Made by a program: the position numbers and the translations under genes. A model generated the notes under the pieces. It ran no database searches, was not told the origin of the DNA, and worked only from the letters and a program-made list of their open reading frames with translations. Below are positions 1,623 through 33,277 of a stretch of DNA of 33,277 nt, piece after piece; position 1 is the stretch's first letter, and each line of letters begins with the position of its first letter. This DNA comes from Candidatus Saccharimonadota bacterium (lineage in GTDB: Bacteria > Patescibacteriota > Saccharimonadia > Saccharimonadales > UBA4665). The stretch spans positions 1-33,277 of the forward strand of contig JAICKC010000016.1 in the NCBI GenBank assembly GCA_025928155.1, written 5' to 3'.

Positions 1623-1623
1623 C

Positions 1624-2588: not shown

Positions 2589-4591
2589 GACTGTATGGCC
2601 TCGTACTCTTTCACCTTCCGGGCTTGCGCCTGATCTAGTTTTTCAACCTCGCGTGCAGTCAGTACATACTCGGGTTCGTCATTCATGCTGCGTACAACCA
2701 GCGTTACCACCACGCCCACGAACGCCAGCGGCAACACCCAATACATGTGCCATACCAGGCAAAAAGCAAACGTAAACGCCAACGCGCCAACGGCTACACT
2801 CCAGCCGCTATTTTTGGGCAGCAGCACGTCTTCATACTCTTTATGGCTCTTTTTGGCCTGCTTGTCAGCCCAGAATTGGTCACGTACCTGCACGACCGGC
2901 TGCTTGGTAAAGCTATAAAAGGGAGCCGGCGAGGGCACCGACCACTCTAGTGTGCGACCGTTCCACGGGTCGCCTGTCAGGTCACGGTTGCTGTCGCGCA
3001 GCAAAATACTTACCACCAGCTGCGCCACCTGGGCCGCCACTCCGAACCCTATCAGCGCTGCACCGATACCAGCCACAATAAACAGCGGCTGCCAGCCGAG
3101 CGACGCATCGTAGTGGTCGAGCCGGCGCGTTGCGCCCATCAAGCCCAAGACGTACAGCGGCGTGAAGGCCACGATAAAGCCAACGCTCCAGAACCAGAAC
3201 GCAACCTTGCCGAGACCCTCGTGCAAACGGAAACCGAAAATCTTGGGAAACCAGTAGGAGAGGCCGCTAAAGAATGCAAATACCACGCCACCGATAATCA
3301 TCATGTGGAAGTGCGCTATCAGGAATAGGCTGTTGTGCACCTGATAGTCAATAGCCGGTACGCTCATCATCACGCCCGCCACGCCACCTATTGTAAATAT
3401 TACGACGAACCCCATGAACCACAGCATTGGCGACCTAAAGCTGATTCGCCCGCGGTACATTGTGAACAGCCAGTTAAATATTTTGACGCCCGTGGGCACG
3501 GCGATAACCGCGGTCGTAATACCAAAGAACGCGTTTACATCCGCTCCAGCGCCCATAGTAAAGAAGTGATGCAGCCAGACAGTGTAGCTTAAGATCACGA
3601 TAGCCCATATCGCCCAGACCATGCTAGTGTAGCCAAACAGTGCTTTGCGGCTAAATGTTGCGACTACTTCGCTCCAGATCCCAAAGGCTGGCAGCACTAA
3701 TATATACACTTCGGGGTGGCCCCACGCCCAGATAAGGTTCACGTACATCATAGCGTTACCGCCACCACCGGCTGTGAAGAAGTGCGTGCCGATGGTTCGG
3801 TCGAGCGCCAGCAGTGTTAATGTGACTGTCAGGATAGGGAAGGCGAAGGCTACTAGTGCCATACTGCCCATGACCGACCAGGCGAACATCGGCATTTTCA
3901 TAAGACTCATGCCGGGCGCGCGCATCTTAATAATGGTCACCATGAAATTAATGCCCGAGAGCAGACTGCCAATGCCGCTGATTTGTAGCGCCCATATCCA
4001 GTAGTCCACGCCGACGGTCGGGCTGTATTTGAGTTCGCTTAAAGGTGGGTACGCCAGCCAACCGGCTGCCGAAAAATCACCCAGTACCAGGCTCGCCATC
4101 ACTAACGCCATACCCGCAAAAAACAGCCAGAAACTAGAAGCGTTCATGAATGGAAAGGCTACGTCGCGGGCCCCCAGCTGCAAGGGCAAAACTAGGTTAA
4201 TAAGTCCGAACATCAAGCCCATCGCTACAAAGAAAATCATAATGGTACCGTGCGCGCTCACGATTTGCTGGAAGTGACTGGCGTCGAGAAACCCCTGGTT
4301 GCTACCAACACTAACCGACTGCTGAGCGCGCATTAAAAAGGCGTCGGCCGCACCGCGCAGCAGCATGATCAGCGCTACAATCACATACATTACGCCGATG
4401 CGCTTCGGATCCTGCGTCGTCAGCCATTCTTTCCAGAGCCATTTCCAACGATGCAGGTAGGTTATGAGCCCCGCCACCGCCAGCAAACCGCCAACCACCA
4501 TGGCGGCTCCGCCATAAGCAATCGCGTTCGGTGGTAACTGGTTCCAGCCGAGCCGACCGAGCAGTGCAAAAGCTACGTGACCTAACAGCAT
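2585..4591 (-). CDS. cyoB: Cytochrome bo3 quinol oxidase subunit I (CyoB)
   Basis: Catalytic heme-copper subunit, 668 aa, close to the E. coli length of 663. It binds low-spin heme b, the heme o3/Cu(B) oxygen-reducing centre and quinol. Visible residues: SAHG (heme b His); WGHPEVYI (Cu(B) His and cross-linked Tyr); VWLHHFF (two Cu(B) His); HFHMMIIGG (heme o3 and heme b His); RDVAFPF (D-channel Asp); GVKIFNW (K-channel Lys). The quinol-site residues known from E. coli are also present: Arg and Asp in RGAADAFLMR, then His and Gln in SHFQQ. The C-terminal part keeps NRDLTGDPW(N)GRTLEW, typical of quinol rather than cytochrome c oxidases. It starts within the cyoA stop (TGATG). Confidence 0.97.
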   Translation of the reverse strand: MLLGHVAFALLGRLGWNQLPPNAIAYGGAAMVVGGLLAVAGLITYLHRWKWLWKEWLTTQDPKRIGVMYVIVALIMLLRGAADAFLMRAQQSVSVGSNQGFLDASHFQQIVSAHGTIMIFFVAMGLMFGLINLVLPLQLGARDVAFPFMNASSFWLFFAGMALVMASLVLGDFSAAGWLAYPPLSELKYSPTVGVDYWIWALQISGIGSLLSGINFMVTIIKMRAPGMSLMKMPMFAWSVMGSMALVAFAFPILTVTLTLLALDRTIGTHFFTAGGGGNAMMYVNLIWAWGHPEVYILVLPAFGIWSEVVATFSRKALFGYTSMVWAIWAIVILSYTVWLHHFFTMGAGADVNAFFGITTAVIAVPTGVKIFNWLFTMYRGRISFRSPMLWFMGFVVIFTIGGVAGVMMSVPAIDYQVHNSLFLIAHFHMMIIGGVVFAFFSGLSYWFPKIFGFRLHEGLGKVAFWFWSVGFIVAFTPLYVLGLMGATRRLDHYDASLGWQPLFIVAGIGAALIGFGVAAQVAQLVVSILLRDSNRDLTGDPWNGRTLEWSVPSPAPFYSFTKQPVVQVRDQFWADKQAKKSHKEYEDVLLPKNSGWSVAVGALAFTFAFCLVWHMYWVLPLAFVGVVVTLVVRSMNDEPEYVLTAREVEKLDQAQARKVKEYEAIQS

Positions 4592-5487
4592 CAGAAACTC
4601 ACCCCCACTGCGTCCACGCTATCACCCCCGTCTGTCGGCATCATGTACTTCATAATAATCGTATCATACAAGTCCGGCTGCACGGCCGCGTAATAGGCGG
4701 CCTTATTGTTGCTGCTCGGACGCGCCAGGTTCATGTAGGTAAAATCGGTGAGCTTGCTGCCGGAGTGCTGAGCTGCTCCTACCCAAGCCTTAAAATCGCT
4801 CTGCGACTGCGACTTAACGGTGAAACTCATACCGGCAAAGCCGCTGCCGCTGATGTTAGCCGCCACACCCCGAAAGTCGCCAGTTTTAGCAGCCATGAGG
4901 TTCTCCTGCGTATTCATGCCGGGCATAGCGTACATTTGGCCGCCGAGCTGCGGCGCCCAAAAGCTGGTCATCACGGTATCGCTGGTAATCTCAAAATCCA
5001 CGGGAGTACCCACCGGTATGGCTGCCTCATTCACACTCGCCACGCCTTGCTCAGGGTAGATAAACAGCCACTTCCAGTCCAACGCCACGACCTGGATATG
5101 CAGCGGCTTGTTGCCTTGGAGCGGCTTGAACGGATCAAGCGCGTAGCTGCTATTCCAGGTAATCACGCCGATAATCGTAATAAAGATTGCCGGTATCGCC
5201 CACCAGACGGCTTCGAGCCTGCCGTTACCTTCAAACTTGGGATCATAGCGGCCACGCGGATTGCCTTCGCGGTAGCGCCAGGCAAACATACCCAGCATAA
5301 CAAACACCGGCACAACCACAATGAGCGATATGCTGGCAGTAAAGATCATGAGATTGCGCTCTTTGGTGCCAACTTGGCCGGCTGGCTGGAGCACTGCGAT
5401 AGGGTGGCTGTGGAGATAACTGCCGGCTAGCACCACTACCGCCAGTAGCAGCGTTGCTACTACAAGAATCTTTCCCCGCGTTTTCAT
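4591..5487 (-). CDS. cyoA: Cytochrome bo3 quinol oxidase subunit II (CyoA)
   Basis: Subunit II, 298 aa. The frame is open further upstream, but that part lies antisense to nothing sensible and inside the preceding gene; the ATG at 5485-5487 (MKTRGKILVV) gives a normal N-terminus. An N-terminal hydrophobic segment (about 7-25) and a second (about 48-70) precede a periplasmic cupredoxin domain. The Cu(A) ligands of cytochrome c oxidases are absent: the region reads SFWAPQLGGQMYAMPGM and ISGSGFAGMSF, as in quinol oxidases. Unusually, the lipobox of E. coli CyoA is not present: VVLAGSYLH has Ser where the lipidated Cys would be. A TGCTACAAT box lies 10 nt before the ATG, so this unit may have its own leaderless transcript. 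Confidence 0.95.
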   Translation of the reverse strand: MKTRGKILVVATLLLAVVVLAGSYLHSHPIAVLQPAGQVGTKERNLMIFTASISLIVVVPVFVMLGMFAWRYREGNPRGRYDPKFEGNGRLEAVWWAIPAIFITIIGVITWNSSYALDPFKPLQGNKPLHIQVVALDWKWLFIYPEQGVASVNEAAIPVGTPVDFEITSDTVMTSFWAPQLGGQMYAMPGMNTQENLMAAKTGDFRGVAANISGSGFAGMSFTVKSQSQSDFKAWVGAAQHSGSKLTDFTYMNLARPSSNNKAAYYAAVQPDLYDTIIMKYMMPTDGGDSVDAVGVSF

Positions 5488-5497
5488 CCTTATGCTT

Positions 5498-5506
5498 ATT
5501 GTAGCA
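5498..5506 (-). promoter_or_regulatory. Extended -10 element before cyoA
   Basis: TGCTACAAT on the minus strand ends 10 nt before the cyoA ATG. Transcription would begin at or within a few bases of the start codon. No good -35 is visible, as expected for an extended -10 promoter. It lies in the 22-nt gap between the FAD-oxidase stop and cyoA. Confidence 0.55.
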
Positions 5507-5509
5507 CGC

Positions 5510-7174
5510 CTAGAAGTGGTCGCGGATGTGGGAGTAGCTGTAGTCCCAGTCAGCGTCGGACTTTTTGTGTGGGTTGAAGATGTTCTCGGGATCAAAAATA
5601 TGCTTAACGTCGCGGAACAGCCCAACGATCTGCTTACCAAACTGTGCTTCCAGCCACGGGCCGCGCACCAGGCCGTCGTTGTGTTCGCCACTTAAAGTGC
5701 CTTCATAGTGCAGCACCAGATCGTTGACTTCCTTTTGGCTCGGCTCAATTTTCTTGCGCTCCTTGGGATCCTCAATCTTCATGAGCGGAATCACGTGGAA
5801 ATTGCCGTCACCCATGTGCCCGGCGATGGTTGCAAACAAGTGATATTTTTTGATGATTTTCTGTAGCCGCGGTAGGAACTCTTCCAGATGCGTTGGTGGC
5901 ACAGCGAAGTCATCGATATACGGTGCAGTGTGCTTGTCCTTGACCTTGCTCCGGAGCAGCTGGAAACTATTGCGGCGCATAATCCAGAATTTCTCGCTTT
6001 TGCCCTCGGTGGGGTCTTCTTCGAATCCATTGATTTCGTAGCGGGCGCGCAGATGTTTAAGCTCGCGGTGCAGGGCTTTGACTTTCTGGCGCACTTCGTC
6101 CTCGGTTTCCCCGTTGAACTCGACCATCAGAATGAGCTTGGGGATGCCACGCAGCAATTGCAGACCGTCCGGTATGAGCGTGATAAGTAGATGGATGAAC
6201 CGTCTCCAGCCCAACATTTTAAGGAAGCTCGGCATAAAACGAATACTGAGCCAGAGCGTTTGGTCATCGAAACTCTCGAATGTGGCAGGCTTATGCTCTA
6301 GCACCTTTGGAATAAGTTCGCCCAGGTCGTTGATGTTGCGCATAAACAACACGAGCAGGCCAGAATGCGGGCGGTGCGGCACCAAGCGGTATTTGATATC
6401 GGTAACAAAACCGAGCGTGCCCTCACTGCCGACAATTAACTTCGTGAGGTCAAACACGCCGGTTTCACGGTCCCAGACCTCCCACAACGTATAGCCCATG
6501 CTGTTTTTGCTGACGTGCGGTTTGGCCGCTTTGATGGCGTCGTAATGGGCTTCACACAGGTCGTAAACCTGCTTGTAGATACTGCCTTCGTAGTCCTTTT
6601 GCGCCAACTTTTTCTTAAGCGCCTCACCTTTAAGCGGCTTCACTGCATACTCATTGCCATCAGCAAATACCACTTGCAGCTCATTCACGAAGTCTTTGAC
6701 CTTGCCGTATTCCAACGATTTTTCACCGCCGGAGTTGTTCGCGACCATGCCGCCGACCGTACAGAGTTCGCGACTGGCGGGGTAGGAGGGCATGAGTGCG
6801 CCGTGCTTCAGCGTTTCACGTTCGAAGTCGCGGTAAAATACGCCGGGCTGGGTTTGCGCTTCTTCGGGCGTGACCTCTTCGATAGCGGTAAAATGTTTGT
6901 TGAAATCAACGATGACTGATTCATTGATGGCACCGCCGGCCATATCGGTGCCAGCACTTCGAGCCGTGACCGACAAGTCGGGCATCGATTTCTTTTTCTC
7001 GGACACCAGCTTCACCAGTGCCTGGACATCTTTGCTATCCTGCGGCATTACCACGAGCTTGGGCCGCAATTCAAACATGCTGGCGTCGTGACTATATTTT
7101 TCTTTAGCCTCTGCCGAGTCCTCGAACTCGCCCTTAAAGCCACGTTTTTTCAGCTCGGTTTTGATATCTTCCAT
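5510..7174 (-). CDS. FAD-linked 2-hydroxyacid oxidase/dehydrogenase (GlcD / D-lactate dehydrogenase-like)
   Basis: A flavoprotein of about 554 aa likely to oxidise D-lactate, glycolate or a similar 2-hydroxyacid and pass electrons to quinone. The N-terminal FAD-binding domain (PCMH type) shows RPKLVVMPQDSKDVQALV, RSAGTDMAGGAI, PASRELCTVGGMVANNSGG and VGSEGTLGFVTDI. The C-terminal FAD-oxidase domain shows IAGHMGDGNFHV near residue 480 and a GEHNDGLVR motif where many relatives have GEHGIG. There is no C-terminal Fe-S domain. It sits directly before cyoA on the same strand, which suggests it feeds the bo3 oxidase. Start: ATG at 7172-7174 is preferred because TGCTAAGCT lies 8 nt upstream; ATG at 7190-7192 is the alternative. 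Exact substrate is not determinable from sequence. Confidence 0.88.
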   Translation of the reverse strand: MEDIKTELKKRGFKGEFEDSAEAKEKYSHDASMFELRPKLVVMPQDSKDVQALVKLVSEKKKSMPDLSVTARSAGTDMAGGAINESVIVDFNKHFTAIEEVTPEEAQTQPGVFYRDFERETLKHGALMPSYPASRELCTVGGMVANNSGGEKSLEYGKVKDFVNELQVVFADGNEYAVKPLKGEALKKKLAQKDYEGSIYKQVYDLCEAHYDAIKAAKPHVSKNSMGYTLWEVWDRETGVFDLTKLIVGSEGTLGFVTDIKYRLVPHRPHSGLLVLFMRNINDLGELIPKVLEHKPATFESFDDQTLWLSIRFMPSFLKMLGWRRFIHLLITLIPDGLQLLRGIPKLILMVEFNGETEDEVRQKVKALHRELKHLRARYEINGFEEDPTEGKSEKFWIMRRNSFQLLRSKVKDKHTAPYIDDFAVPPTHLEEFLPRLQKIIKKYHLFATIAGHMGDGNFHVIPLMKIEDPKERKKIEPSQKEVNDLVLHYEGTLSGEHNDGLVRGPWLEAQFGKQIVGLFRDVKHIFDPENIFNPHKKSDADWDYSYSHIRDHF

Positions 7175-7182
7175 GCTACTTA

Positions 7183-7191
7183 AGCTTAGCA
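7183..7191 (-). promoter_or_regulatory. Possible extended -10 before the FAD oxidase
   Basis: TGCTAAGCT on the minus strand lies 8 nt before the ATG at 7174, the same geometry as at cyoA, ndh and the atp operon. The match to TATAAT is weaker, and the box would fall inside the coding region if the ATG at 7192 were used. Confidence 0.35.
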
Positions 7192-7340
7192 TGGTTTTTC
7201 GCCTTTTCGTCCTTTTGGGACTCCTACCCCTCGGGAGGGATACGAGTCGCTGTACTCGGAAAGTCAAATGTCTGGAGCAAACTCCAAAGTTTGCTTTCCC
7301 TCCGTACAGCACTCATCAGCACAAATACACATCTGTGAAA

Positions 7341-7438
7341 GACGAACATAACAAGCAAACAACGGATGGGGAAACAAGGGGATACGGAATGGACCGTAAC
7401 ACCCCTACCACAGCCGTTGTTTCCTCATTATGTTCGTC
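7341..7438. repeat. 98-nt nested inverted repeat in a 345-nt gene-free stretch (7193-7537)
   Basis: The only structure in the gap between the FAD oxidase and the 60-aa gene is a multi-tier stem. Arms, outside in: GACGAACATAA (7341-7351)/TTATGTTCGTC (7428-7438), 11 bp; AAACAACGG (7357-7365)/CCGTTGTTT (7414-7422), 9 bp; AGGGG (7377-7381)/CCCCT (7402-7406), 5 bp; TACGG (7383-7387)/CCGTA (7394-7398), 5 bp with a 6-nt loop. All tiers are perfect and in register. There is no T-run, so it is not a simple terminator; it could be a structured RNA, a small non-autonomous repeat or a DNA cruciform site. The ORF across it on the plus strand shows no protein-like features. Confidence 0.7.
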
Positions 7439-7537
7439 AGCGGCGTTGCCGCTTTCGTGCAGCTTGAGGGTTGGTTGTGGCCAGGGTGGATTAGGTGGTT
7501 CCTCGACCGAGGTCGAAGAGCTTGGTAACTATGGTAA

Positions 7538-7720
7538 CTACCGCTTGCAGCAGCTGTAGGCCAGCATGACTACGGCCAGCAGCACCGACAGGTAGACGAA
7601 CGCCGGGTTGATGAAGATAGCCATCATGGCGATCAGCATCCAGCCAGCGCCGAAACTGATGAGTTCCTTGGTCGAGAATAGCTCGCGGAGCGGAACGCTT
7701 CCCTCACGATAGTTCGACAT
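7538..7720 (-). CDS. Small two-helix membrane protein, unknown
   Basis: A 60-aa protein starting MSNYREGSVPLREL with two hydrophobic segments (about residues 21-37 and 39-55) and a C-terminal SCCKR. A purine-rich site (AAGGGGAG, 7726-7734 region) precedes the ATG, which supports real translation. I do not recognise it. It lies between two long inverted repeats (7341-7438 and 7751-7809) and is divergent from ndh. The stop codon falls inside a 9-bp tandem direct repeat (TGGTAACTA twice, 7523-7540). Confidence 0.6.
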   Translation of the reverse strand: MSNYREGSVPLRELFSTKELISFGAGWMLIAMMAIFINPAFVYLSVLLAVVMLAYSCCKR

Positions 7721-7750
7721 CGACTCCCCTTACTTTGATCCGATTTTTAA

Positions 7751-7809
7751 GAAGACAAATAGGAGACAGGTACACCGCTAGTAGGTGTACACATTTCCTA
7801 TTTGTCTTC
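7751..7809. repeat. Nested hairpin between divergent genes
   Basis: Outer arms of 14 perfect bases (7751-7764 GAAGACAAATAGGA, 7796-7809 its complement) enclose an inner stem GTACACC (7770-7776)/GGTGTAC (7784-7790) with a 7-nt loop. A further small palindrome GAGTACGTGTACTC lies at 7834-7847. The region is upstream of both the 60-aa membrane gene and ndh, so it could act as an operator, a leader structure or a transcription barrier. Confidence 0.65.
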
Positions 7810-7934
7810 CCGTTTGCTTGTTAATGTACCTCGGAGTACGTGTACTCAACGAAGTATACTACATTATACCACAAGCATGTTGTTTGTCAACTTTCACCCC
7901 TGGCGCATGCCGTTTGCATATCGCTTATCGTTAT

Positions 7935-7943
7935 TGTTACAAT
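7935..7943 (+). promoter_or_regulatory. Extended -10 element before ndh
   Basis: TGTTACAAT ends 9 nt before the ATG at 7953; no Shine-Dalgarno precedes the start. It has nearly the same sequence and the same spacing as the cyoA element, which suggests joint leaderless expression of the respiratory genes. Confidence 0.55.
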
Positions 7944-7952
7944 GAGTTTGAA

Positions 7953-9164
7953 ATGGCAGAAAAACAACAAAAACAGCGTATCGTCATCGTAGGTGGGGGC
8001 TTTGGCGGTATAAAGACCGCTCTAGAGCTTGCCAAGTACACTGACAAATTTGATATCACCCTGATAAGCGAGCGATCGGATTTCTGGTACTTTCCCACGC
8101 TCTACCACACGGCCACTGGTGGCACACGGCACGAGAGCAGCATCACTATTAAGCACCTACTGCACGGCAAGGATGTCAAGTTTGTAGAGGGCACGGCTGA
8201 GAGCGTTGACCGCGCTGCTAAAAACCTTATCCTGAAGGGCAAAGACAAGCCGGCTGTTCCATACGACAAACTAGTGCTGGCACTTGGATCAGTCACTAAC
8301 TACTTTAATATTCCGGGCTTGCCGGAGTTCAGCTACGGCGTAAAGTCCATCGGCGAAGCCGAGGAGCTCAAACGCCACCTGCACCAACAGATTATCGACG
8401 ATGGCAAGCCGGACCTGAACTACGTAATTGTGGGTGGTGGTCCGACCGGCATTGAGCTGGCCGGCAATCTAGGACGCTATATGCAAGAGACGCTGAAGCG
8501 CCACGGTATCGACGGCCGACCCGTGCACGTCGACCTTGTGGAAGGTGCTAAGCACCTTATGCCACGCATGCCGAAAAGTGTCGGCCGCGCCATTGAGCGC
8601 CAACTGCGTTCACTCGGCGTCAAGCTCTACCTAGGCAAGGCGGTACAGGGCGAGACTGCTGACGAGCTCACTGTAGACGGCAAACCCATTCGCAGCCACA
8701 CAGTTATCTGGACGGCCGGGCAAGCTAATAATCCTTTCTTTACAGCCAATAGCTTCACGCTTAGCCCGCGTAAGAAAGCGCTAGTGGATGAATTTTTACG
8801 CTCGTACGACGACCGCAGCATTTTCATCATTGGCGACAATGCCGAAACCCAATACAGCGGCATGGCCCAGACCGCCGTGTACGATGCTGAATTTGTCGCA
8901 GCCAATTTTGTACACGAACTGACCGGCGACCCCAAACTGGCATACAAGCCCAAAAAACCAGTGTACGTTACGCCGGCCGGCCATCGTTGGGCAGCAGTGG
9001 AGTGGGGGAACTTCCACTTCTACGGCCTGCTCGGTTGGTGGTTGCGCGAAGCCGCCGACTTTGTTGCCTTTGACGGCTTGGAAGGTCCGGTTGGTGCTGC
9101 AGAGCAACTGACGCAAAGCCTTGGCCGACAAGATCTGTGCTCGGTCTGTGGTAGTGTTTCTTGA
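7953..9164 (+). CDS. ndh: Type II NADH:quinone oxidoreductase (NDH-2)
   Basis: Single-subunit, non-proton-pumping NADH dehydrogenase, 403 aa from the chosen start, normal for the family. The FAD site is at the N-terminus (IVIVGGGFGGIKTALEL, about residues 10-26) and the NADH site in the middle (YVIVGGGPTGIELAGNLG, about 157-174). Other family marks are LVLALGSVTNYFNIPG, TVIWTAGQANN and SIFIIGDNA. The C-terminus is short and ends with a Cys-x2-Cys (LCSVCGSVS), which is unusual; no obvious C-terminal transmembrane helix is present, so attachment would be through an amphipathic segment. The frame extends upstream to 7785, but that part is not protein-like and the TGTTACAAT box fixes the start at 7953. 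It would reduce quinone used by Cyo. Confidence 0.92.
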   Translation: MAEKQQKQRIVIVGGGFGGIKTALELAKYTDKFDITLISERSDFWYFPTLYHTATGGTRHESSITIKHLLHGKDVKFVEGTAESVDRAAKNLILKGKDKPAVPYDKLVLALGSVTNYFNIPGLPEFSYGVKSIGEAEELKRHLHQQIIDDGKPDLNYVIVGGGPTGIELAGNLGRYMQETLKRHGIDGRPVHVDLVEGAKHLMPRMPKSVGRAIERQLRSLGVKLYLGKAVQGETADELTVDGKPIRSHTVIWTAGQANNPFFTANSFTLSPRKKALVDEFLRSYDDRSIFIIGDNAETQYSGMAQTAVYDAEFVAANFVHELTGDPKLAYKPKKPVYVTPAGHRWAAVEWGNFHFYGLLGWWLREAADFVAFDGLEGPVGAAEQLTQSLGRQDLCSVCGSVS

Positions 9165-9784: not shown

Positions 9785-10375
9785 ATGAAAAAGGACGAAG
9801 GGAAGCAGAAGAAGACAGGCCTGAACGCAGCTCAAACAGCTGCGGTACATGTCAACGAAGGACCGGTACTGGTAGTGGCTGGGGCGGGTACGGGTAAAAC
9901 CCGGGTGATCACCGAACGAGTTCTTCGGCTTATCCAGGATGGTACAGCCCCGGAGAGTATCCTGGCGCTTACCTTCACGGAAAAGGCAGCTGGTGAGATG
10001 CGTGACCGGGTAAGCGACACGTCTTTAAGCGCGGCGCTCGATACTGCCATTGCCACCTACAATGGCTTCGGCAACGACTTGCTCAAACAATACGGGAGCG
10101 AGTGGGGACTCGGCGAGCTGCATCTGCTGGGCGACACCGGACAGCTAGTGTTTCTGCGTGAACACTTCGACGAGTTCGCGTTGGAATATTTCGCGCCCAT
10201 TAGCAATCCGGACGGTCAGCTGGAGAATCTGCGCGGCTATGTGTCGCAACTCAAGCAACAGCTCGTCCAGCCCGAAGCATATCTAGAATACGCTAACGAG
10301 CTGCCGGTAGCCGACCCGGCCGACGCGCTTGAAAAAAGCAAGCATCGAGAGCAAGCTCACAACTACCACACCTAA
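9785..10375 (+). CDS. UvrD/PcrA-type helicase, N-terminal fragment before an in-frame TAA
   Basis: N-terminal 196 codons of a superfamily 1A DNA helicase. It contains the Q-motif region (LNAAQTAAV), Walker A (VVAGAGTGKTRVITERV) and motif Ia (LALTFTEKAAGEMRDRV). The frame stops at TAA (10373-10375) in the middle of the 1B region, but translation of the same frame after the stop continues the helicase without gap: LRLCREHQAIDYDDQIYL and then motif II. Relatives often have Tyr in this region, so TAC or TAT to TAA is the simplest change. The two pieces are therefore one gene of about 944 codons with a single nonsense codon: a recent mutation, a base-call error or, less likely, readthrough. Confidence 0.85.
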   Translation: MKKDEGKQKKTGLNAAQTAAVHVNEGPVLVVAGAGTGKTRVITERVLRLIQDGTAPESILALTFTEKAAGEMRDRVSDTSLSAALDTAIATYNGFGNDLLKQYGSEWGLGELHLLGDTGQLVFLREHFDEFALEYFAPISNPDGQLENLRGYVSQLKQQLVQPEAYLEYANELPVADPADALEKSKHREQAHNYHT

Positions 10376-15945: not shown

Positions 15946-16371
15946 CTATTTCTGGTGACGACGCTTTAGACTAGCAACCTGCAGCCGTACAGCGTGACGA
16001 TCAACCAGCTGCTGGGCATGCTCCAGACTCACTTCGTCCTTAGCCTCTGCCTTGAGCTGCTTGGCGCGTTCGTGTGCCGCCTCGGCTTCGGCCTCGTTAA
16101 TGTCAGCAGCATTGTCGGCTTCGTCCACTAGCATGCGGAGTTTGTTACCGCTCACTTCGATAACGCCGCCGCTAATAGCAAAATATTCGCGGTCACGGTC
16201 GGCATCACGCGGCTCGCGGCGAACGGCAACCACACCAGTAGTTGCTACGCTGACAAGCGGCATATGGTCCTGCAGCACACCAATTTCGCCGTCCAGCGTC
16301 GGCAAAACAATTTCGTAGGCCTCGCCGTCGAACTTCGTACCAGTCAGTGCTACCAATTGAAAATGTATCAT
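15946..16371 (-). CDS. atpC: ATP synthase epsilon subunit
   Basis: Rotor stalk subunit that connects gamma to the c-ring and inhibits ATP hydrolysis; 141 aa. The N-terminal beta-sandwich is clear (IVLPTLDGEIGVLQDHMPLVS at its core, where the usual motif is DGE-IGVL-x-H-x-PL). A long charged helical C-terminal region follows (ADINEAEAEAAHERAKQLK and beyond). Its ATG overlaps the stop of the 81-aa ORF (ATGA), which couples the two. Confidence 0.93.
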   Translation of the reverse strand: MIHFQLVALTGTKFDGEAYEIVLPTLDGEIGVLQDHMPLVSVATTGVVAVRREPRDADRDREYFAISGGVIEVSGNKLRMLVDEADNAADINEAEAEAAHERAKQLKAEAKDEVSLEHAQQLVDRHAVRLQVASLKRRHQK

Positions 16372-16613
16372 CTCTTTTCCCCTCTAACCCATCTGGCGAG
16401 TGAGTCTAGGGCCATGCCAGCAACTTCTCGTGCCGACCACAGCATGCCGCCCCGCGTCTCTCCATTATCTACCACAGAAACTCCATCAACGTAGCCAGGG
16501 TGAGCGGGCCCTATAAGATCACGGCCGCGTATCGGCTGCGGACCACCGACCGGCGTATGTACCGTCGGACCGGGGTCGGCGTCGCGGGCTCTAATGCTTA
16601 GGTCACTCTCCAT
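16368..16613 (-). CDS. Novel 81-aa ORF between atpD and atpC
   Basis: MESDLSIRARDADPG to the C-terminal WSAREVAGMALDSLARWVRG. The N-terminal 55 residues are Pro/Gly-rich and probably extended; the C-terminal 25 form an amphipathic helix. It starts 4 nt after the atpD stop and ends in an ATGA overlap with atpC, so it is embedded in the operon and probably translated. I know no standard ATP synthase subunit of this kind. It could be a modulator of F1 (comparable in position, not in sequence, to small inhibitors such as the zeta subunit of alphaproteobacteria) or an unrelated insertion. Confidence 0.6.
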   Translation of the reverse strand: MESDLSIRARDADPGPTVHTPVGGPQPIRGRDLIGPAHPGYVDGVSVVDNGETRGGMLWSAREVAGMALDSLARWVRGEKR

Positions 16614-16617
16614 TTAG

Positions 16618-18228
<1,611 letters not shown>

Positions 18229-18236
<8 letters not shown>

Positions 18237-19098
18237 TGAGCGCCTCCGCACCACCGGTGATTTCGGCCAGCTCCTGGGTAATTGCCGCCTGGCGGGCGGT
18301 GTTCAGCTCTAGCGTGTAGTCGTCGATGAGGTCCTTGGCGTTATCGGTAGCGCTCTTCATGGCCATCATCCGCATGGCATGCTCGCTGGCGATACTTTCG
18401 AGCAGTGCCTGCCAGACCTGAGCTTCAATCAGCCGCGTCGCAATCTGGTCGATAACGGTTTCGACATCCGGCTCGAAGTTGCTGATAGCCGTACCCGTAG
18501 CCTGGCCGTCCTCAATCGGTTTGGAGGGTAGCAGTTGCTGTACCGACGCCACCTGGCTCACCATTGATTTGAACTGCGTAAACAATACATGTACATCGTC
18601 AACCTCACCATTTTTGTACTGCTCCACAATCGTGTTGAGCACTGGCCGCAAATCGTTGGCAGTCGGTTCGTCACCAAAACCCGGGTAAGCGGCCTCAAGG
18701 TCGATATCGCTGACGCGGCGAACAAACTGAGCGCCCTTGTTGCCGACAGCCAGCACGCAGCTCTTCACTTTTGCTTGCCGGTCAGCTTTAACCGAGGCTG
18801 TTAACAGCTTAAGCACATTAGCGTTGTACGCACCAGCCAGACCACTGTTACTCGTAATGAGAACATACAAACGGGACTTGACCGGACGTTTTTCGAACAA
18901 CGGTTGGCGCTCAACTTCGGCAATGCCGCTGAGGCGCGTAATCAGCTCGTTGGCAAGGTCAGCGTACGCACGTGAATGTTCAGCATATTCCTGCGCGCGG
19001 CGCAGCTTGCTTGCCGCCACCAATTGCTGAGCCTGTGTAATCTGCCGGGTGTTCTTGATGGACTTAATTCGTCGCCGAAGGGTGATAGTACTTGCCAT
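18229..19098 (-). CDS. atpG: ATP synthase gamma subunit
   Basis: Central rotor shaft, 289 aa. The N-terminal coiled-coil is typical (LRRRIKSIKNTRQITQAQQLVAASK), as is the C-terminal one ending TRQAAITQELAEITGGAEAL. The middle Rossmann-like domain includes YVLITSNSGLAGAYN. It starts 11 nt after the atpA stop. Confidence 0.96.
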
Positions 19099-19109
19099 AG
19101 TGGTTTAGC

Positions 19110-20651
<1,542 letters not shown>

Positions 20652-20667
20652 AAATAATTCCTAAAGA

Positions 20668-21072
20668 TTAATCCTTTCCGGCTCCAGTTAGCTGTTTGAA
20701 TTGTTTCAATTTACCCTCGACGCTCAGGTCAAGCTGGCGGTCCGCCAGTTGAATCTGGACGCCGCCGATGACGCTCGGATCGATTACCCCCGTTACCACC
20801 ACCTTGTCAGCTTGCGGGAACAAAGGCTTAACGCGCGCCGCAATGTCATGTTTAGTATCATCCGTCAGCGGGTGTGCGCTGCGGGCCAATACTTCTACAT
20901 AGCCGTGCAGGGCCCAGTCGGCCTGGATGTCGCGCAGGAGCGATTCCAGTTCGCCGACCCTGCCTTCGTCCAGCAAGAGCGCGGCAACCTGCCGAGCATA
21001 GTCCTTGGAAGCGCCCTCATAGTACGTGTGAGCAGCTACGACGGTAGCGATACGGACGCGCGAGGTCTTCAT
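20668..21072 (-). CDS. atpH: ATP synthase delta subunit, short form
   Basis: Peripheral stalk cap (OSCP), 134 aa, against about 175-180 in most bacteria. The C-terminal domain is clear (VVVTGVIDPSVIGGVQIQL, with the family I-GG-x2-I-x5 pattern). The N-terminal helical bundle that binds the alpha subunit N-termini appears shortened. Overlaps atpF upstream (4 nt). The missing part may be compensated by the b subunit, but no separate domain is visible. Confidence 0.88.
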   Translation of the reverse strand: MKTSRVRIATVVAAHTYYEGASKDYARQVAALLLDEGRVGELESLLRDIQADWALHGYVEVLARSAHPLTDDTKHDIAARVKPLFPQADKVVVTGVIDPSVIGGVQIQLADRQLDLSVEGKLKQFKQLTGAGKD

Positions 21073-21605
21073 AGGGCCCGTTGCTCCTTGATGGCGCGGT
21101 CGATAATGGCCGCGTCCTTGGTAGCATCAACTTTTTCGCCAATGATCGCTTCGGTCGCGTCGCTCACCCAGCCCACGATCTGGCTTTCGAGCTGCTTACG
21201 AGCCCGCTGCATTTCAGAAGCAGCTTTGTCCTGACCTTCTTTTACAATAGCGTCAGCCTTCTTGGCAGCATTTTCTTCAGCCTCGCGGATAGCGCTGCGA
21301 GCGGCTTCGTTAGCGTCAGCAATAATACCATCGGCCTCTTTGCGGGCCTTGGCCAGCTCATCGGCAACCTTAGCTTCGAGCGCAGCCTTGTCTTTCTTCA
21401 TCTGCTCACCGAGAGTCACACCGTCTTCGATGGTCTTGCGACGCTGTTCCATAATGTGCACAATCGGCTTGAACGCCCAGTGCTGCAATACCCAAAAGGC
21501 AAGTAGGAACGTGATGGCCTGGATGACAAGCGCTTTGCCGTCAATACCCAGCGCTCCGATGCCGGAGGTGCTGTCTGCAAAATTAGTTGTTATATTTGCA
21601 AGCAT
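21069..21605 (-). CDS. atpF: ATP synthase b subunit
   Basis: Peripheral stalk of Fo, 178 aa. One N-terminal membrane helix (about residues 22-45, DGKALVIQAITFLLAFWVL) and then a long, highly charged coiled-coil rich in Ala, Lys and Glu. Only one b-type gene is present, so the stalk is presumably a homodimer. Confidence 0.94.
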   Translation of the reverse strand: MLANITTNFADSTSGIGALGIDGKALVIQAITFLLAFWVLQHWAFKPIVHIMEQRRKTIEDGVTLGEQMKKDKAALEAKVADELAKARKEADGIIADANEAARSAIREAEENAAKKADAIVKEGQDKAASEMQRARKQLESQIVGWVSDATEAIIGEKVDATKDAAIIDRAIKEQRAL

Positions 21606-21615
21606 TCAATATTCC

Positions 21616-21870
21616 TTACTTGACGAAGAATGTAGAGGCAAAAGCGAGCAATCCGTAGACCTCAATCAGACCCACGAACACCAGGGCCTGGCCGAGGAAC
21701 TTGGAAGCCTCCGGGTTGCGGCCAACGGCGCTTAAGTAGTTAGCACCGACCAAGCCGATACCGATAGTTGGGCCAATAAAGCCGCCGCCGATCATGATAC
21801 CGTGAGCGATGGTCTGCATCGCTTCCGGGTTAGTCACAGTACTCGCTACGTGCATTGCAACTGGTAACAT
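21616..21870 (-). CDS. atpE: ATP synthase c subunit
   Basis: Proteolipid of the rotor ring, 84 aa, two membrane helices. The first has the Gly-rich packing motif (GGGFIGPTIGIGLVG); the second carries the ion-binding Glu in FVGLIEVYGLLAF. The residues around it do not match the Na+ signature, so proton coupling is expected. The strong GGAG site 6 nt before the ATG and the hairpin-bearing 105-nt spacer upstream are consistent with high expression of this multi-copy subunit. Confidence 0.96.
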   Translation of the reverse strand: MLPVAMHVASTVTNPEAMQTIAHGIMIGGGFIGPTIGIGLVGANYLSAVGRNPEASKFLGQALVFVGLIEVYGLLAFASTFFVK

Positions 21871-21893
21871 ATATTTCTCCTTATTAACTTTAC

Positions 21894-21914
21894 GTGATGT
21901 TTTTCTGCCATCAC
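21894..21914 (-). promoter_or_regulatory. Hairpin in the atpB-atpE spacer
   Basis: On the minus strand GTGATG and CATCAC arms (21894-21899 and 21909-21914) enclose a 9-nt A-rich loop, 23 nt before the atpE ATG. A second stem, ATCTTC-GGGA-GAAGAT, is at 21929-21944 or so. Such structures between atpB and atpE could stabilise the atpE message or affect its translation. Confidence 0.4.
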
Positions 21915-21975
21915 GATCGAAGTCGAGATATCTTCGGGAGAAGATCGCTCTGTCCGATCGCGACCAGCACGCGTT

Positions 21976-22857
21976 CTATCCTTTAACCCCTTGGGCCGCC
22001 GCTCCTATTCTCTCAACGGGCGCTTCAGCGGTCAAGCTACCTGGCTCGTCGTGGTCAGCGTGCTCGCTTGCACTATTGACCGAAATGGCCAGATAGTTGA
22101 CACCAAGGATAACGAAGATATAAGCCTGGAGCGCGCCCACGCCGAGCTCCAGTAGAGTAAATGGCAACGCTGTAATGGGCGCCAGGATGCTCACCGGAGC
22201 CAGCAGACCACCCAAGTACACGAACACCGCGATTACAATCTCACCGATGGTCACGTTCAAGAAAAGCCGAAGCGCCAAGCTCAGCGCCCGGGTAAGGTCG
22301 GTAATCATTTCAATCAGCCCAATCACCAGGTACAGTGGGTTGAGCGGACTGCCGATAAAGAAGTGGCGGATGTACTTGGCGAAGCCGCCAACTTCTTTAA
22401 TAGATGCGGTATAGACGACAATCATTGTCACGAGACCCATGGCCACCGTCATATTCAGGTCGCCGGTGATGGGGCGCAACAGCGGGTGGCCGTGAATCTG
22501 AATGCCGTCACCCACGCCCGGGATCAGTCCTGACCAGTTGTTGAGTAGTGTGAAGAAAAATAGTGTCACGAAGAAGGGCACGTACTTGCGGCCGATGGAT
22601 TTATCGGTAAACGCGCCTTCGACCAAATCAACCACAAAGCCCACGATCGCCTCGACATATTGGATAACACCGCCCTTGGGTTTTACGGTTGCCCGACGCG
22701 CCACTGTCGCCAGCCCAAGCGCGACAGCCAAACAGGTAATCCATCCCCATACCATCGAGTTCGTAATGTGCATACCGGCAACGGTAAAATCGGTGCCCGG
22801 CGCTACGTGAATGTCAGGGCCACCACTCGCAGCAAAGCGGCTCAGTAAACTAATCAT
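21976..22857 (-). CDS. atpB: ATP synthase a subunit
   Basis: Fo stator channel, 293 aa. The essential Arg is in ALSLALRLFLNVTIGE (about residue 200), with the conserved Asn three residues on. Several further membrane helices, and a His-rich, acidic C-terminal tail (ASEHADHDEPG). The start is ATG 22855-22857 (MISLLSRF), which overlaps the AtpI/Z-like gene by 8 nt; the upstream extension to 22893 lies inside that gene. Confidence 0.95.
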   Translation of the reverse strand: MISLLSRFAASGGPDIHVAPGTDFTVAGMHITNSMVWGWITCLAVALGLATVARRATVKPKGGVIQYVEAIVGFVVDLVEGAFTDKSIGRKYVPFFVTLFFFTLLNNWSGLIPGVGDGIQIHGHPLLRPITGDLNMTVAMGLVTMIVVYTASIKEVGGFAKYIRHFFIGSPLNPLYLVIGLIEMITDLTRALSLALRLFLNVTIGEIVIAVFVYLGGLLAPVSILAPITALPFTLLELGVGALQAYIFVILGVNYLAISVNSASEHADHDEPGSLTAEAPVERIGAAAQGVKG

Positions 22858-23227
22858 CTTCGTCCTCCCGCTCGTACTGCTTGCGAACAGCACGCCGCTG
22901 CGCGTCAGTCAGCTTAGGTACCGGCAGGCCGTTAGCTGTTTGTAGCGTCCGCCACATGACCACTATCGAACCCAGTACGGCGACAGCTAGACCAATCAGC
23001 GTGCCCGCAGATTCATGGCCCGCCTTCTTACCCAGTTCTACACCGGCAATGATCGGCACCAGCACAACAATGGCCAGCTGCCAGGTCATAGTCAGCGCCA
23101 TAGCCACAAATTGGTTACGCGCCACAGCTGATTTTTGGGGATCAACGGGTGCAGTACTAGAGAGTACCTTGCGACCACCCCTTAACGGAGTCCGCGCTAT
23201 CACCGCTGGCTCGTGTAACATGCTCAT
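22850..23227 (-). CDS. AtpI/AtpZ-like membrane protein
   Basis: 125 aa with two membrane helices (about residues 45-65 and 76-93). The sequence QLAIVVLVPIIAGVELGKKAG resembles the AtpI/AtpZ family encoded at the head of many atp operons, which help c-ring assembly or Mg2+ supply. The C-terminus is highly charged (RRAVRKQYEREDEDD). It is the first gene of the atp operon: TGCTATATT lies 9 nt before the ATG at 23227, with no Shine-Dalgarno. Confidence 0.8.
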   Translation of the reverse strand: MSMLHEPAVIARTPLRGGRKVLSSTAPVDPQKSAVARNQFVAMALTMTWQLAIVVLVPIIAGVELGKKAGHESAGTLIGLAVAVLGSIVVMWRTLQTANGLPVPKLTDAQRRAVRKQYEREDEDD

Positions 23228-29565: not shown

Positions 29566-29814
29566 ATGGCTCAGAGCAATCCACAAGTTATCATTTACAG
29601 CGCCGCCTGGTGCGCGTTTTGCCACGCCGCCAAAGATTACTTGGATAAAAAGGGTGTGCAGTACACCGACAAAGATGTCGACAGCAGTCCCGCGATCGCC
29701 CAAGAGGCCATGAAAGTCAGCGGCCAGACTGGCATTCCGGTGTTGAACATCAACGGCCAAATCATTATTGGTTTTGACCGCCCACGCATCGACGCCGCGC
29801 TAGCGGCCGTATAA
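29566..29814 (+). CDS. Glutaredoxin-like protein
   Basis: 82 aa thioredoxin-fold disulfide reductase. Active site SAAWCAFCHAAK (Cys-Ala-Phe-Cys, about residues 16-19), and the cis-Pro loop TGIPVLNINGQIIIGF. Length and pattern fit small glutaredoxin/NrdH/mycoredoxin-like proteins; the reductant cannot be told from sequence. Glutathione is not expected in this type of organism, so thioredoxin reductase or another thiol is likely. AAAGG lies 12 nt before the ATG, a bit far. Confidence 0.88.
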   Translation: MAQSNPQVIIYSAAWCAFCHAAKDYLDKKGVQYTDKDVDSSPAIAQEAMKVSGQTGIPVLNINGQIIIGFDRPRIDAALAAV

Positions 29815-30334: not shown

Positions 30335-30904
30335 ATGGCGTTTGAGGATTACCAGACCAAAGAATCGGTGGTAGTTGTATATACCGGCGAGGGCAAGGGC
30401 AAAACCAGTGGCAGTGTGGGCCTCATGGCACGCGCCCTCGGCAATCGTTGGAATGTGGCGTTTATCCAATTTATAAAATACTGGGGCGTGGGCGAGCACG
30501 CCTTCATCCGCGACATTATGCCCTTGTACGGCGACCAGCTGTATTTTTTTAAGGGCGGGAAGGGGTTTTACGACGCCGGCGACATCAGCGAAGCCAATGT
30601 AACGCCCGATCAGCACAAAGCGGCCGCTCTCGAAACCTACGGGCAGGCCCTGCAGTGCGCGACCAATGGCGAATATCGTCTGGTTATCTGCGACGAAATC
30701 AATAATGCCGTGCACGACGGCTTACTACCATTGAGCAAGCTGCGAGAACTCATCGACAAGCGCGCACCCGGCACCAGCCTCTGCCTGACTGGCCGCAATT
30801 TCCCTAAATCGCTTGAGAGTAGGGCCGACATCGTCACCAATATGACCAAAGTCAAACACCACTTCGACGACAAGTTTCTGGCTAACAAGGGGATAGATTT
30901 CTAG
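30335..30904 (+). CDS. cobO: Cob(I)yrinic acid a,c-diamide adenosyltransferase (CobO/BtuR family)
   Basis: 189 aa, near the usual length of about 196. It transfers the adenosyl group from ATP to reduced corrinoids. P-loop VVYTGEGKGKTSGSVGLMA (about residues 14-32), then ARALGNRWNVAFIQFIK, and Walker B LVICDEINNAVHDGLL (about 113-128). The terminal part includes LTGRNFPKSL, the family TGR motif. No other cobalamin gene is in the window. It ends in a CTAG shared with the stop of the WhiB remnant on the other strand. Confidence 0.88.
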   Translation: MAFEDYQTKESVVVVYTGEGKGKTSGSVGLMARALGNRWNVAFIQFIKYWGVGEHAFIRDIMPLYGDQLYFFKGGKGFYDAGDISEANVTPDQHKAAALETYGQALQCATNGEYRLVICDEINNAVHDGLLPLSKLRELIDKRAPGTSLCLTGRNFPKSLESRADIVTNMTKVKHHFDDKFLANKGIDF

Positions 30905-31160
30905 CTTTGCGGAGGCGCTTCAGCACGCATAGCTCGCCGCTGCTCAGTGGTGGTACCGGCCCAAAGCCCATATTCTCTATTCTGGACGGCAAAATCTAGG
31001 CACAGCGCCCGCAAAACTCTTGAGCAACTTGATCGGCTGCGGATTCGGTTTCCGATACAGGAAAGAAGACCTCGCCGTCGGCAGTCCTGCACTCTCCGTC
31101 ACGTATCCAACTACGCATGGGAGTCGCCGCCAATGCTTCGGTAGAAAAACCTTTAGGCAT
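30901..31160 (-). pseudogene. Frameshifted WhiB-like Fe-S regulator
   Basis: On the minus strand ATG 31158-31160 begins MPKGFSTEALAATPMRSWIR, followed by GECRTADGEVFFP and QEFCGRCA, then a TAG (30996-30998): 54 aa. This is the N-terminal half of a WhiB protein: a Trp-Ile, one Cys, the FFP motif, and Cys-x2-Cys. The C-terminal half is in another frame and ends at 30901: LCLDFAVQNREYGLWAGTT, then TEQRRAMRAEAP, which matches the last Cys, the G-x-W-x-G turn and the Arg-rich helix. A loss of about 16 nt between two copies of GCGCTGTGCC would give exactly this. Expected product about 88 aa. TATGAT is 11 nt before the ATG. Confidence 0.75.
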
Positions 31161-31243: not shown

Positions 31244-31843
31244 ATGGCACGGAGGCTGCAGCGCAAACACGGCATTAGTTTGCTAGGGCTACTGCTGGTA
31301 CTTGCTGTAGCGATTATGCAAAGCCGAGGTATGCTTGATAAGCCCGAAAACGGCGCGATGACCTCGCAGCCGGGGTTGTACGCTATCAATCATTACATCG
31401 ATGGCGACACCATTTCGGTGAACATAAATGGTGGGAAGCAGGAAGTGCGCTTTATCGGCATCGACACGCCGGAAACCCATAAACCCAACACGCCGGTACA
31501 GTGCTACGGCCCGGCAGCCGCCGCATATACGCAAAACCGCATCAAAGCCGCTGGCGGCAAGGTGCGGCTGGTGAGCGACAACTTAGGCACTGACCGCGAC
31601 CGTTACGACCGCTTGCTGCGCTACGTGTATTTGCCGGACGGCACTAACCTGAACCAGCAGCTCGTGGCGAACGGCTACGCATTTTACTACCCGTATTTTC
31701 CGTTCAGCAAATCGGACGGATTTAATAAAGATGAACAGGCAGCCATCGCCGCACGTAAAGGATTGTGGGGTGCCTGCCACCCTACGCCCAGCGACAACGG
31801 CGGCTACAAAATGGATGAGACCCAGGACAAAGCAAGTAGCTAG
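31244..31843 (+). CDS. Exported thermonuclease (SNase-like)
   Basis: 199 aa. N-terminal membrane anchor or signal (about residues 10-27, GISLLGLLLVLAVAIMQ), then a staphylococcal nuclease domain: YIDGDTISV, VRFIGIDTPETHKP (Arg, Asp and Glu of the catalytic site) and DRYDRLLRYVYL (second catalytic Arg). Two Cys (VQCYG and GACHP) may pair. Such nucleases in small-genome epibionts could degrade external DNA for nucleotides; that use is inference. The stop codon shares CTAG with the stop of the GT2 gene. Confidence 0.92.
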   Translation: MARRLQRKHGISLLGLLLVLAVAIMQSRGMLDKPENGAMTSQPGLYAINHYIDGDTISVNINGGKQEVRFIGIDTPETHKPNTPVQCYGPAAAAYTQNRIKAAGGKVRLVSDNLGTDRDRYDRLLRYVYLPDGTNLNQQLVANGYAFYYPYFPFSKSDGFNKDEQAAIAARKGLWGACHPTPSDNGGYKMDETQDKASS

Positions 31844-32718
31844 TCAACAAACGTCGCGGGATTAACACGGGCGACTAGGTCACCCCGTAGCAGCTGCATC
31901 CAGGAAAACCTTTGGCGAGTCCGGTCGTAACCCTGGTGTAAAACCCGCAGCAACGGATAAAGAGGCACGACGAGCGCCACCAGACACCACATCGAGCGCG
32001 TCCCCAAACCGTGCTGGCCGTAGCTACGTGGGTTGGCTGCGGCATACACATAAAAAGCCTGCCAATCCAGAGCACACTGGCGAGAACCGATGGTCACGTG
32101 TAACCGCTCGTCAAGTATCGCACTGCGCCCCATTTCCCCAAGGTGCACAGCCAGATCGAGATCCTCGTGCAAACCTGCTCGCGCGCACAGCACACTGCGC
32201 ACTCCCAGCCAGGTGCTACGCCGCACCGCCATGTTCGCCCCTTGCAGTGGTACCACGCCAGCATAGAGATGGGCAAAATAGCGCCGAATAAGCCGATCAA
32301 GGTAACTAATCAGTGGTGCCCAAGCGATGTCGCGGTAGCGCACAACGCCTGTCACAGCACTCGCGCCCGTTTCAGCGAAAACTTCTTGCACTGTTTGCAC
32401 CCAGTCTGCTGGTAGGTCAGTATCGGCATCAATACTGCCGATAATAGCGCCGCGCGCCTCGTCAAAGCCGCGCCGGCGGGCGTGCACTACACCTTGGCGA
32501 CCCTCGCGCACCAATCGCACAAATGGGAATTGCGCCGCAATAGCGGCCGTCGTGTCAGTCGAGTTATTATCCACCACAATAACTTCATACGGCCGGACTC
32601 TCTGCTGCGCAACCGCGCGCAAACAGTCTCCGATTCGTTCGGCTTCGTTGTACACTGGAATCACGATGCTGACGCGCAAATTGTTGCGCCCGGTCGTTAC
32701 AAAACTAGGATATGTCAA
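31840..32718 (-). CDS. Family 2 glycosyltransferase
   Basis: GT-A fold enzyme: VSIVIPVYNEAERIGDCL at the N-terminus, VIVVDNNSTDTT (nucleotide-sugar binding), IGSIDADTDLPADW (Asp-x-Asp metal site), QGANMAVRRSTW (acceptor loop) and GLHEDLDLAVHL (catalytic E-D). A hydrophobic segment near the C-terminus (about 235-255) suggests membrane association. The start is unresolved: TTG at 32718 (TATAAT 10 nt upstream) is used here; TTG at 32679 (beginning just before VSIVIP) and GTG at 32760 are alternatives. At 32718 it overlaps the divergent gene by 7 nt. Confidence 0.88.
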   Translation of the reverse strand: MTYPSFVTTGRNNLRVSIVIPVYNEAERIGDCLRAVAQQRVRPYEVIVVDNNSTDTTAAIAAQFPFVRLVREGRQGVVHARRRGFDEARGAIIGSIDADTDLPADWVQTVQEVFAETGASAVTGVVRYRDIAWAPLISYLDRLIRRYFAHLYAGVVPLQGANMAVRRSTWLGVRSVLCARAGLHEDLDLAVHLGEMGRSAILDERLHVTIGSRQCALDWQAFYVYAAANPRSYGQHGLGTRSMWCLVALVVPLYPLLRVLHQGYDRTRQRFSWMQLLRGDLVARVNPATFVD

Positions 32719-33277
32719 ACCACGATCAATTATATACCGTCCAGGGCAAGCGACTTGCACAGACCTTCAGTAAATGGCCAGGACGCTATTGGCGCTTAGG
32801 CTGGTGGCAGAAGGTTATAAGCTGTGTAGTTATTTTAACTACGATCTGTATCCTGGGGATGTATGGCATTGGGCTGTGGTACCAGCACACCCAAAAGAGC
32901 AAACCGCTCGTGCAAGGTGTAAGTTTCATTGCCGATTACGCCAGCTATCTCGGCACCGACCCCCATGCCAGCCTCAGCGCCATTCTGAATGATCTCCACG
33001 TCAAACACCTACGCTTAGTGAGCTACTGGAGCGATATTGAGCCTACGCAGGGGCAGTACGACTTCAGCGAGCTCGACTACGAAATGCAGCAGGCTCAGAC
33101 CCATGGCGTCAAAGTGACGCTGGCCGTTGGACTACGCCAACCGCGCTGGCCGGAGTGCCACCCGCCTACATGGGTTGACACGACCCGGCCGGAGAATACT
33201 TGGGAACCACAGCTTGAGGCCTATATGACCGCGGTTATTAATCGCTACAAAAAGAATCCGGTGCTGGAAAGCTACCA
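32712..33277 (+). CDS. Membrane-anchored glycoside hydrolase, TIM-barrel type, 3' end outside the window
   Basis: 188 codons visible from ATG 32712 (MSNHDQLYTVQGKRLAQ). A hydrophobic anchor lies at about residues 38-58 (ISCVVILTTICILGMYGIG), then an extracytoplasmic domain: GVSFIADYASYLG, LRLVSYWSDIEPTQGQYDF, LDYEMQQAQTHGVKVTLAVG, and RQPRWPECHPPTW. This is the N-terminal part of a (beta/alpha)8 hydrolase of the GH42/GH5/GH10 kind (clan GH-A); the acid/base and nucleophile Glu are beyond the edge, so the family cannot be fixed. TACAAA lies 8 nt before the ATG. With the GT2 gene next to it, it may act on surface or host glycans. Confidence 0.75.
   Translation, partial: MSNHDQLYTVQGKRLAQTFSKWPGRYWRLGWWQKVISCVVILTTICILGMYGIGLWYQHTQKSKPLVQGVSFIADYASYLGTDPHASLSAILNDLHVKHLRLVSYWSDIEPTQGQYDFSELDYEMQQAQTHGVKVTLAVGLRQPRWPECHPPTWVDTTRPENTWEPQLEAYMTAVINRYKKNPVLESY
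32729..32734 (-). promoter_or_regulatory. Consensus -10 for the GT2 gene
   Basis: TATAAT on the minus strand, located inside the 5' coding part of the divergent glycoside hydrolase gene. It supports a start at or downstream of 32718 rather than GTG 32760. Confidence 0.4.

Follow-up and report, generated by a model that had tools for sequence, protein, structure and literature searches.

The window analyzed here (33,277 nt; contig JAICKC010000016.1 of the Candidatus Saccharimonadota assembly GCA_025928155.1) contains a broken whiB gene on its minus strand. It is probably a wbl (WhiB-like) gene that a Saccharibacterial chromosome acquired laterally and that is now dead or dying, having been lost through a small deletion. 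The WhiB sequence, the net loss that breaks its frame, its occurrence as the sole copy in the genome and a conserved locus without WhiB in relatives were observed; from these we infer lateral arrival and subsequent loss by a small deletion. The gene and its surroundings were as follows.

29566-29814, plus strand: glutaredoxin (grx; PF00462, 63.7 bits), a conserved, syntenic neighbour.
30335-30904, plus strand: cobO/btuR-type corrinoid adenosyltransferase (PF02572, 153.9 bits), convergent with whiB.
30901-31002, minus strand: second, out-of-frame half of whiB (C half), with Cys4, the NREYGLWAG turn, the TTTEQRRAMR tail and TAG (Pfam Whib, 24.0 bits).
30996-31160, minus strand: first half of whiB (N half; 54 codons), carrying the first Cys, FFP and C-x2-C and closed by TAG (translation; Pfam Whib, 25.6 bits).
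30999-31008, minus strand: junction GCGCTGTGCC, read from the sequence, in which the Cys3 and Cys4 codons overlap, with a net loss of 16 bases relative to C-x2-C-x5-C.
31244-31843, plus strand: Staphylococcal-nuclease-like protein (SNase; PF00565, 78.9 bits), divergent from whiB and conserved beside cobO in family genomes.
31840-32760, minus strand: glycosyltransferase family 2 (PF00535), a conserved neighbour.

The WhiB profile matched two adjacent frames on the minus strand (31160-30901). Translation showed that the N-half ORF begins with ATG at 31160 and closes at 30996, right after MPKGFSTEALAATPMRSWIRDGECRTADGEVFFPVSETESAADQVAQEFCGRCA, with an in-frame TAG (30998-30996), and that the -1 frame continues as ...ALCLDFAVQNREYGLWAGTTTEQRRAMRAEAPPQS to a terminal TAG (30903-30901), ending at 30901. 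The stop codons of cobO and whiB share CTAG (30901-30904). Against PF02467, for which the gathering score is 23.6 bits, the N half covered profile positions 1-34 (E 1.8e-5), the C half covered positions 37-65 (E 5.6e-5), and the two halves joined by XX scored 54.7 bits (E 1.5e-14). Because the halves follow each other along a single profile, in the correct order and without overlap, chance is excluded, and the sequence is confirmed as a WhiB-family gene. The initial annotation had assigned both halves to WhiB and had proposed this profile search; its coordinates and strand were correct, and each half alone, as well as the joined form, passed the cut-off. The conceptual protein was about 91 aa from the ATG at 31160, not 88 aa as first estimated.

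The FFP motif, first Cys, C-x2-C and last Cys described earlier were all present, but the turn was GLWAG, not the G[I/V]WGG usual for the family (PMC6282962), and DGE was found where the family consensus is DPE. The aromatic pair FF and the Trp, which contact sigma region 4 (PMC10245118), were retained, but in different frames: FF lies in VFFP of the N half and the Trp in GLW of the C half. The cysteine pattern C-x(n)-C-x2-C-x5-C was likewise split, with three Cys in one frame and the fourth in the other. Since the fourth Cys is out of frame and overlaps Cys3, the window gene is a broken WhiB member and not a working one. No WhiB match other than the two halves was found in the whole source genome (a 1.30-Mb, 98%-complete draft of 33 contigs). 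Among solved structures, the best match of the window WhiB was WhiB1 of Mycobacterium tuberculosis (PDB 5oay, 6ono; E 7e-10), a class I Wbl protein with which it shares the FFPV motif, CxxC, the R-rich C-terminal tail and the order of elements. Unlike WhiB1, the window gene is broken, its Cys1-Cys2 spacing is shorter and GLWAG stands in place of GVWGG; identity was low, at about 40% to the nearest actinobacterial relatives. The window copy was less close to the class II Streptomyces WhiB/WhiB2 (PDB 8dy7; E 1.6e-7).

We analyzed the junction between the two halves. The Cys3 codon TGT (31004-31002) and the Cys4 codon TGC (31002-31000) have one base in common. The spacing between Cys3 and Cys4 was x5 in 60 of 60 Saccharibacterial WhiB sequences found with this spacing left free; because C-x5-C is fixed in these relatives, the window junction reflects a net loss equal to 16 bases, which supports the small deletion proposed earlier. 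That the deletion took place between two copies of GCGCTGTGCC was not borne out. This sequence is present once in the window, so a loss between two copies has to be supposed rather than seen and the repeat mechanism is conjecture; the same junction would also result from shorter microhomology. The ORF ends ahead of Cys4, so a normal [4Fe-4S] site is not possible. Compared with 90-codon windows taken from 16 neighbouring genes, whiB ranked in the lowest 1.1% for codon usage, a low score that may stem from the short length of the gene or from the unusual composition of WhiB. This score and the DGE and GLWAG departures are both compatible with a foreign origin or with weak constraint.

We favour a real deletion over a consensus or assembly error, under which living cells would still carry an unbroken whiB and the break would exist in the assembly alone. 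We consider such an error improbable, with evidence on both sides. The conserved residues were otherwise kept in both halves, and the source genome is a draft of many contigs. In addition, a UvrD/PD-(D/E)XK helicase-nuclease gene on the same contig (window 9785-12619, plus strand) has one in-frame TAA (10373-10375), past which its profile match continues; this second interrupted gene, whether through decay or consensus error, makes an error at whiB the more possible. However, a clean 16-base net loss is atypical of short-read or homopolymer errors, and the window WhiB also lacks the consensus DPE and G[I/V]WGG, as would be expected under weak constraint. A programmed -1 frameshift at the junction, yielding one full WhiB protein, is far less probable still. 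The C half is read in the -1 frame, which runs over the last bases of the N-half ORF, but a slip after TGT would set Cys4 directly beside Cys3 and give CxxCC, where C-x2-C-x5-C is invariant in 60 relatives, and no slippery heptamer was present in CGCTGTGCCTAG. Interrupted WhiB matches, with one TAA each, were also found in the relatives G022 and G137.

The source of the window copy was also investigated. The proteins nearest to it were actinobacterial (about 42% identical), with Saccharibacterial ones lower, and an alignment query with it gave 80 actinobacterial loci at 32-43% identity. Exact-peptide scans of viral and genome contigs showed no close homologue, and a DNA-level search of viral contigs found no WhiB DNA; at the protein level, 185 phage records matched. 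No WhiB was found within 1.5 kb on each side of 29 other cobO loci of relatives, or in the whole genomes of the genus sisters G001 and G002, so the intact gene that had been expected at the same cobO-SNase position in a related genome did not turn up. The window gene might instead be a diverged, relocated copy of an rpoD-side Saccharibacterial WhiB that needed no separate acquisition, a possible though doubtful origin that is compatible with a dying, laterally derived wbl gene. WhiBs are many in the family and order, often at rpoD-polA, some are as diverged as the window copy, and the tree, which does not firmly place the window WhiB, paired it with one of them (L084) at weak support (87). Against this origin, the genus members have no WhiB at the rpoD locus, and the window WhiB was most similar to actinobacterial WhiB1-type proteins, not to rpoD-linked copies, in a comparison whose actinobacterial set was itself collected by similarity to the window WhiB. 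WhiB has otherwise been reported from Actinobacteria only, which would favour actinobacterial contamination of the contig. The probability of contamination is minimal, because grx, cobO, SNase and the glycosyltransferase, on both sides of whiB, are syntenic with other Saccharibacteria and up to 84% identical to them.

The order grx-cobO-SNase-glycosyltransferase was kept in many genomes of the same family, and cobO was present in 86 of 93 family genomes (61-79% identity). The TM7-905 16S probe site matched exactly in 23 of the 92 family genomes searched, one genus sister among them, and was not found in the source genome itself. This probe is in use for TM7 (PMC3118805). The assignment to a Saccharibacterial (CPR) genome was thereby supported by synteny and by the probe sites in relatives; judged from these sequences, the contig belongs to a Saccharibacterial genome and did not come from a contaminating actinobacterium.

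According to the preferred reading, the wbl gene would have been gained laterally, whether the source was an actinobacterium, an actinobacterial phage or another Saccharibacterium, and a small deletion between Cys3 and Cys4 would then have inactivated it. An intact relative is predicted to carry an O2/NO-sensitive [4Fe-4S] cluster and to influence transcription together with the principal sigma factor. Cys4, the G-x-W-x-G turn and the basic tail are missing from the encoded 54-aa product, which is therefore predicted to bind neither cluster nor sigma factor and to provide no WhiB function in this lineage. More broadly, WhiB genes appear to have been gained and lost repeatedly within the class, the site beside rpoD being preferred.

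The distribution of WhiB was examined using the PF02467 profile. Matches above the cut-off were present in 47 of 93 family genomes and in about two fifths of the order (115 of 295 genomes). A phylum-wide sample of 380 genomes gave 18 WhiB matches, all in the Saccharibacterial class; the kinship-sorted genome list implies that about 37 of these genomes belong to this class and that the roughly 343 from other classes gave no match at all. All four Cys had normal spacing in 60 of 60 intact Saccharibacterial WhiBs, and G[I/V]WGG was present in 54 of the 60 (81 of 81 in the actinobacterial comparison set). The initial annotation had treated WhiB as typical of Actinobacteria and their phages and had overlooked how common it is in this class; the exchange with Actinobacteria that it implied was supported in general. 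Many of the intact proteins were of class II type, up to 81-84% identical to actinobacterial proteins of this group, and some copies on long contigs were 81-84% identical to actinobacterial proteins. In a tree with actinobacterial and phage proteins, the Saccharibacterial WhiBs were dispersed over class II, class I and separate groups, and a single Saccharibacterial clade was rejected (p-AU 1.8e-6). The tree was built from short sequences with some long branches and does not fix the number of origins, but several origins are needed. Repeated transfer is the simplest reading, its direction being suggested by the distribution. General wbl exchange with Actinobacteria is thus supported by the 81-85% identical copies and by the lack of a single clade; the transfer from a host first proposed for the window copy itself was not supported, the best match to that copy being about 42% identical. 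In L207 (G112:C3) and G137:C14, three to four WhiB genes were packed into about 3 kb. The 98-kb viral contig L107 (IMGVR_UViG_3300005537_000022) carried two WhiB genes, one of which grouped weakly (89) with the Saccharibacterial WhiB L093, making it a possible shuttle.

We also analyzed the neighbours of the Saccharibacterial WhiB genes. In 20 regions of 20 kb, selected before the rpoD pattern became known, whiB adjoined dnaG, rpoD or polA in 11; among 49 regions of about 3 kb, 12 showed the same. The full locus order was RNase T, yjbR, dnaG, rpoD, small kinase, whiB, polA, fpg, holA, and it was found again in several families of the order, with the type of WhiB varying at one site. The dnaG-rpoD-(kinase)-whiB-polA-fpg-holA arrangement was present in L196-L199, L201, L205, L206, L209 and L211-L213, all from other Saccharibacteria. 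At the corresponding locus in the window's genus, the kinase was present and WhiB absent. Other Saccharibacterial WhiBs adjoined gltX, nusA or a T2SSE-type ATPase. A phage or plasmid origin of the WhiB loci was rejected, as these neighbours (dnaG, rpoD, polA, fpg, holA, gltX, nusA and the T2SSE-type ATPase) are not phage genes. The window and the examined Saccharibacterial loci resemble actinobacteriophage WhiB-type regulators (PMC8612146) as small stand-alone genes moved between genomes, but unlike these they sit among housekeeping genes. Some rpoD-site WhiBs were C-terminal domains of proteins of 238-373 aa. Proteins of this build were L196:10394-11515, L198:9739-10749, L200:9911-10789, L206:9916-10890 and L211:9936-10652, and no Pfam match was found in their N-terminal parts. 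The N-terminal part of the L206 protein resembled helix-turn-helix repeats when judged by eye, and AlphaFold, with no alignment supplied, modelled this protein with a pLDDT of 34, and the model was set aside. A second sigma-70 factor (439 aa; L212:7771-9090, G274) lay beside whiB, between rpoD and polA.

Region 4 of actinobacterial sigmaA ends in a ...LRHPS... motif. Saccharibacterial RpoD lacked this partner site; its end was ...KLRKHKD(A/S)(K/R)KL..., which replaces LRHPS and is common to the RpoD of WhiB-bearing genomes and of the window's genus. WhiA (PF14527) was absent from 59 of 59 family genomes examined, using a search in which control genomes, including Corynebacterium glutamicum, were positive. 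Thus none of the 59 encodes the WhiA partner that marks Wbl class II, in contrast to Streptomyces. Saccharibacterial WhiBs retain the FF and W. In Actinobacteria, WhiB proteins carry an O2/NO-sensitive [4Fe-4S] cluster, and those of class II pair with WhiA (PMC6282962); several bind sigmaA region 4, and binding by WhiB3 is abolished by changing FF, W or sigmaA His516 (PMC10245118). With FF and W kept, the RpoD end altered and WhiA absent, intact Saccharibacterial WhiBs have probably retained cluster and sigma-factor binding, with an altered sigma contact, and the linkage to rpoD suggests that the sigma partner is the genome's own. The lack of both WhiA and the His-Pro-Ser sigma contact could point either to a rewired WhiB-sigma partnership at rpoD, with some members fused N-terminally, or to proteins aimed at the sigmaA of an actinobacterial host, the window representing a loss; we offer this broader proposal as speculative and rather unlikely.

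Reviews have described WhiB as exclusive to Actinobacteria (PMC6282962, PMC8612146), and a tree-wide survey described it as a clade-defining actinobacterial innovation (PMC6511854). The Saccharibacterial WhiBs contradict this exclusivity. We found no earlier report of WhiB in Saccharibacteria or Patescibacteria in the open literature; public annotations may already name Saccharibacterial WhiBs. We class the window gene as a broken representative of a known family, found in a setting that extends the range of WhiB. The presence of WhiB in about two fifths of one order and in no other sampled class matches Actinobacteria as the known hosts, so transfer of WhiB between host and epibiont is now directly testable. 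The rpoD link, the missing WhiA and the altered sigma tail raise the question of how WhiB acts outside its home phylum, and the broken window copy shows that Saccharibacterial WhiB genes can be lost again.

The retention of a cobO/BtuR-type gene in small epibiont genomes is puzzling. Terminal-oxidase genes, an FAD-linked oxidase and an NDH-2-like dehydrogenase were identified at window positions 768-9164 from ORF translations, of which the dehydrogenase was profile-scanned. F-type ATP synthase genes lie at 15946-22893, and together with the 768-9164 genes they make up an aerobic respiratory set in this Saccharibacterium.
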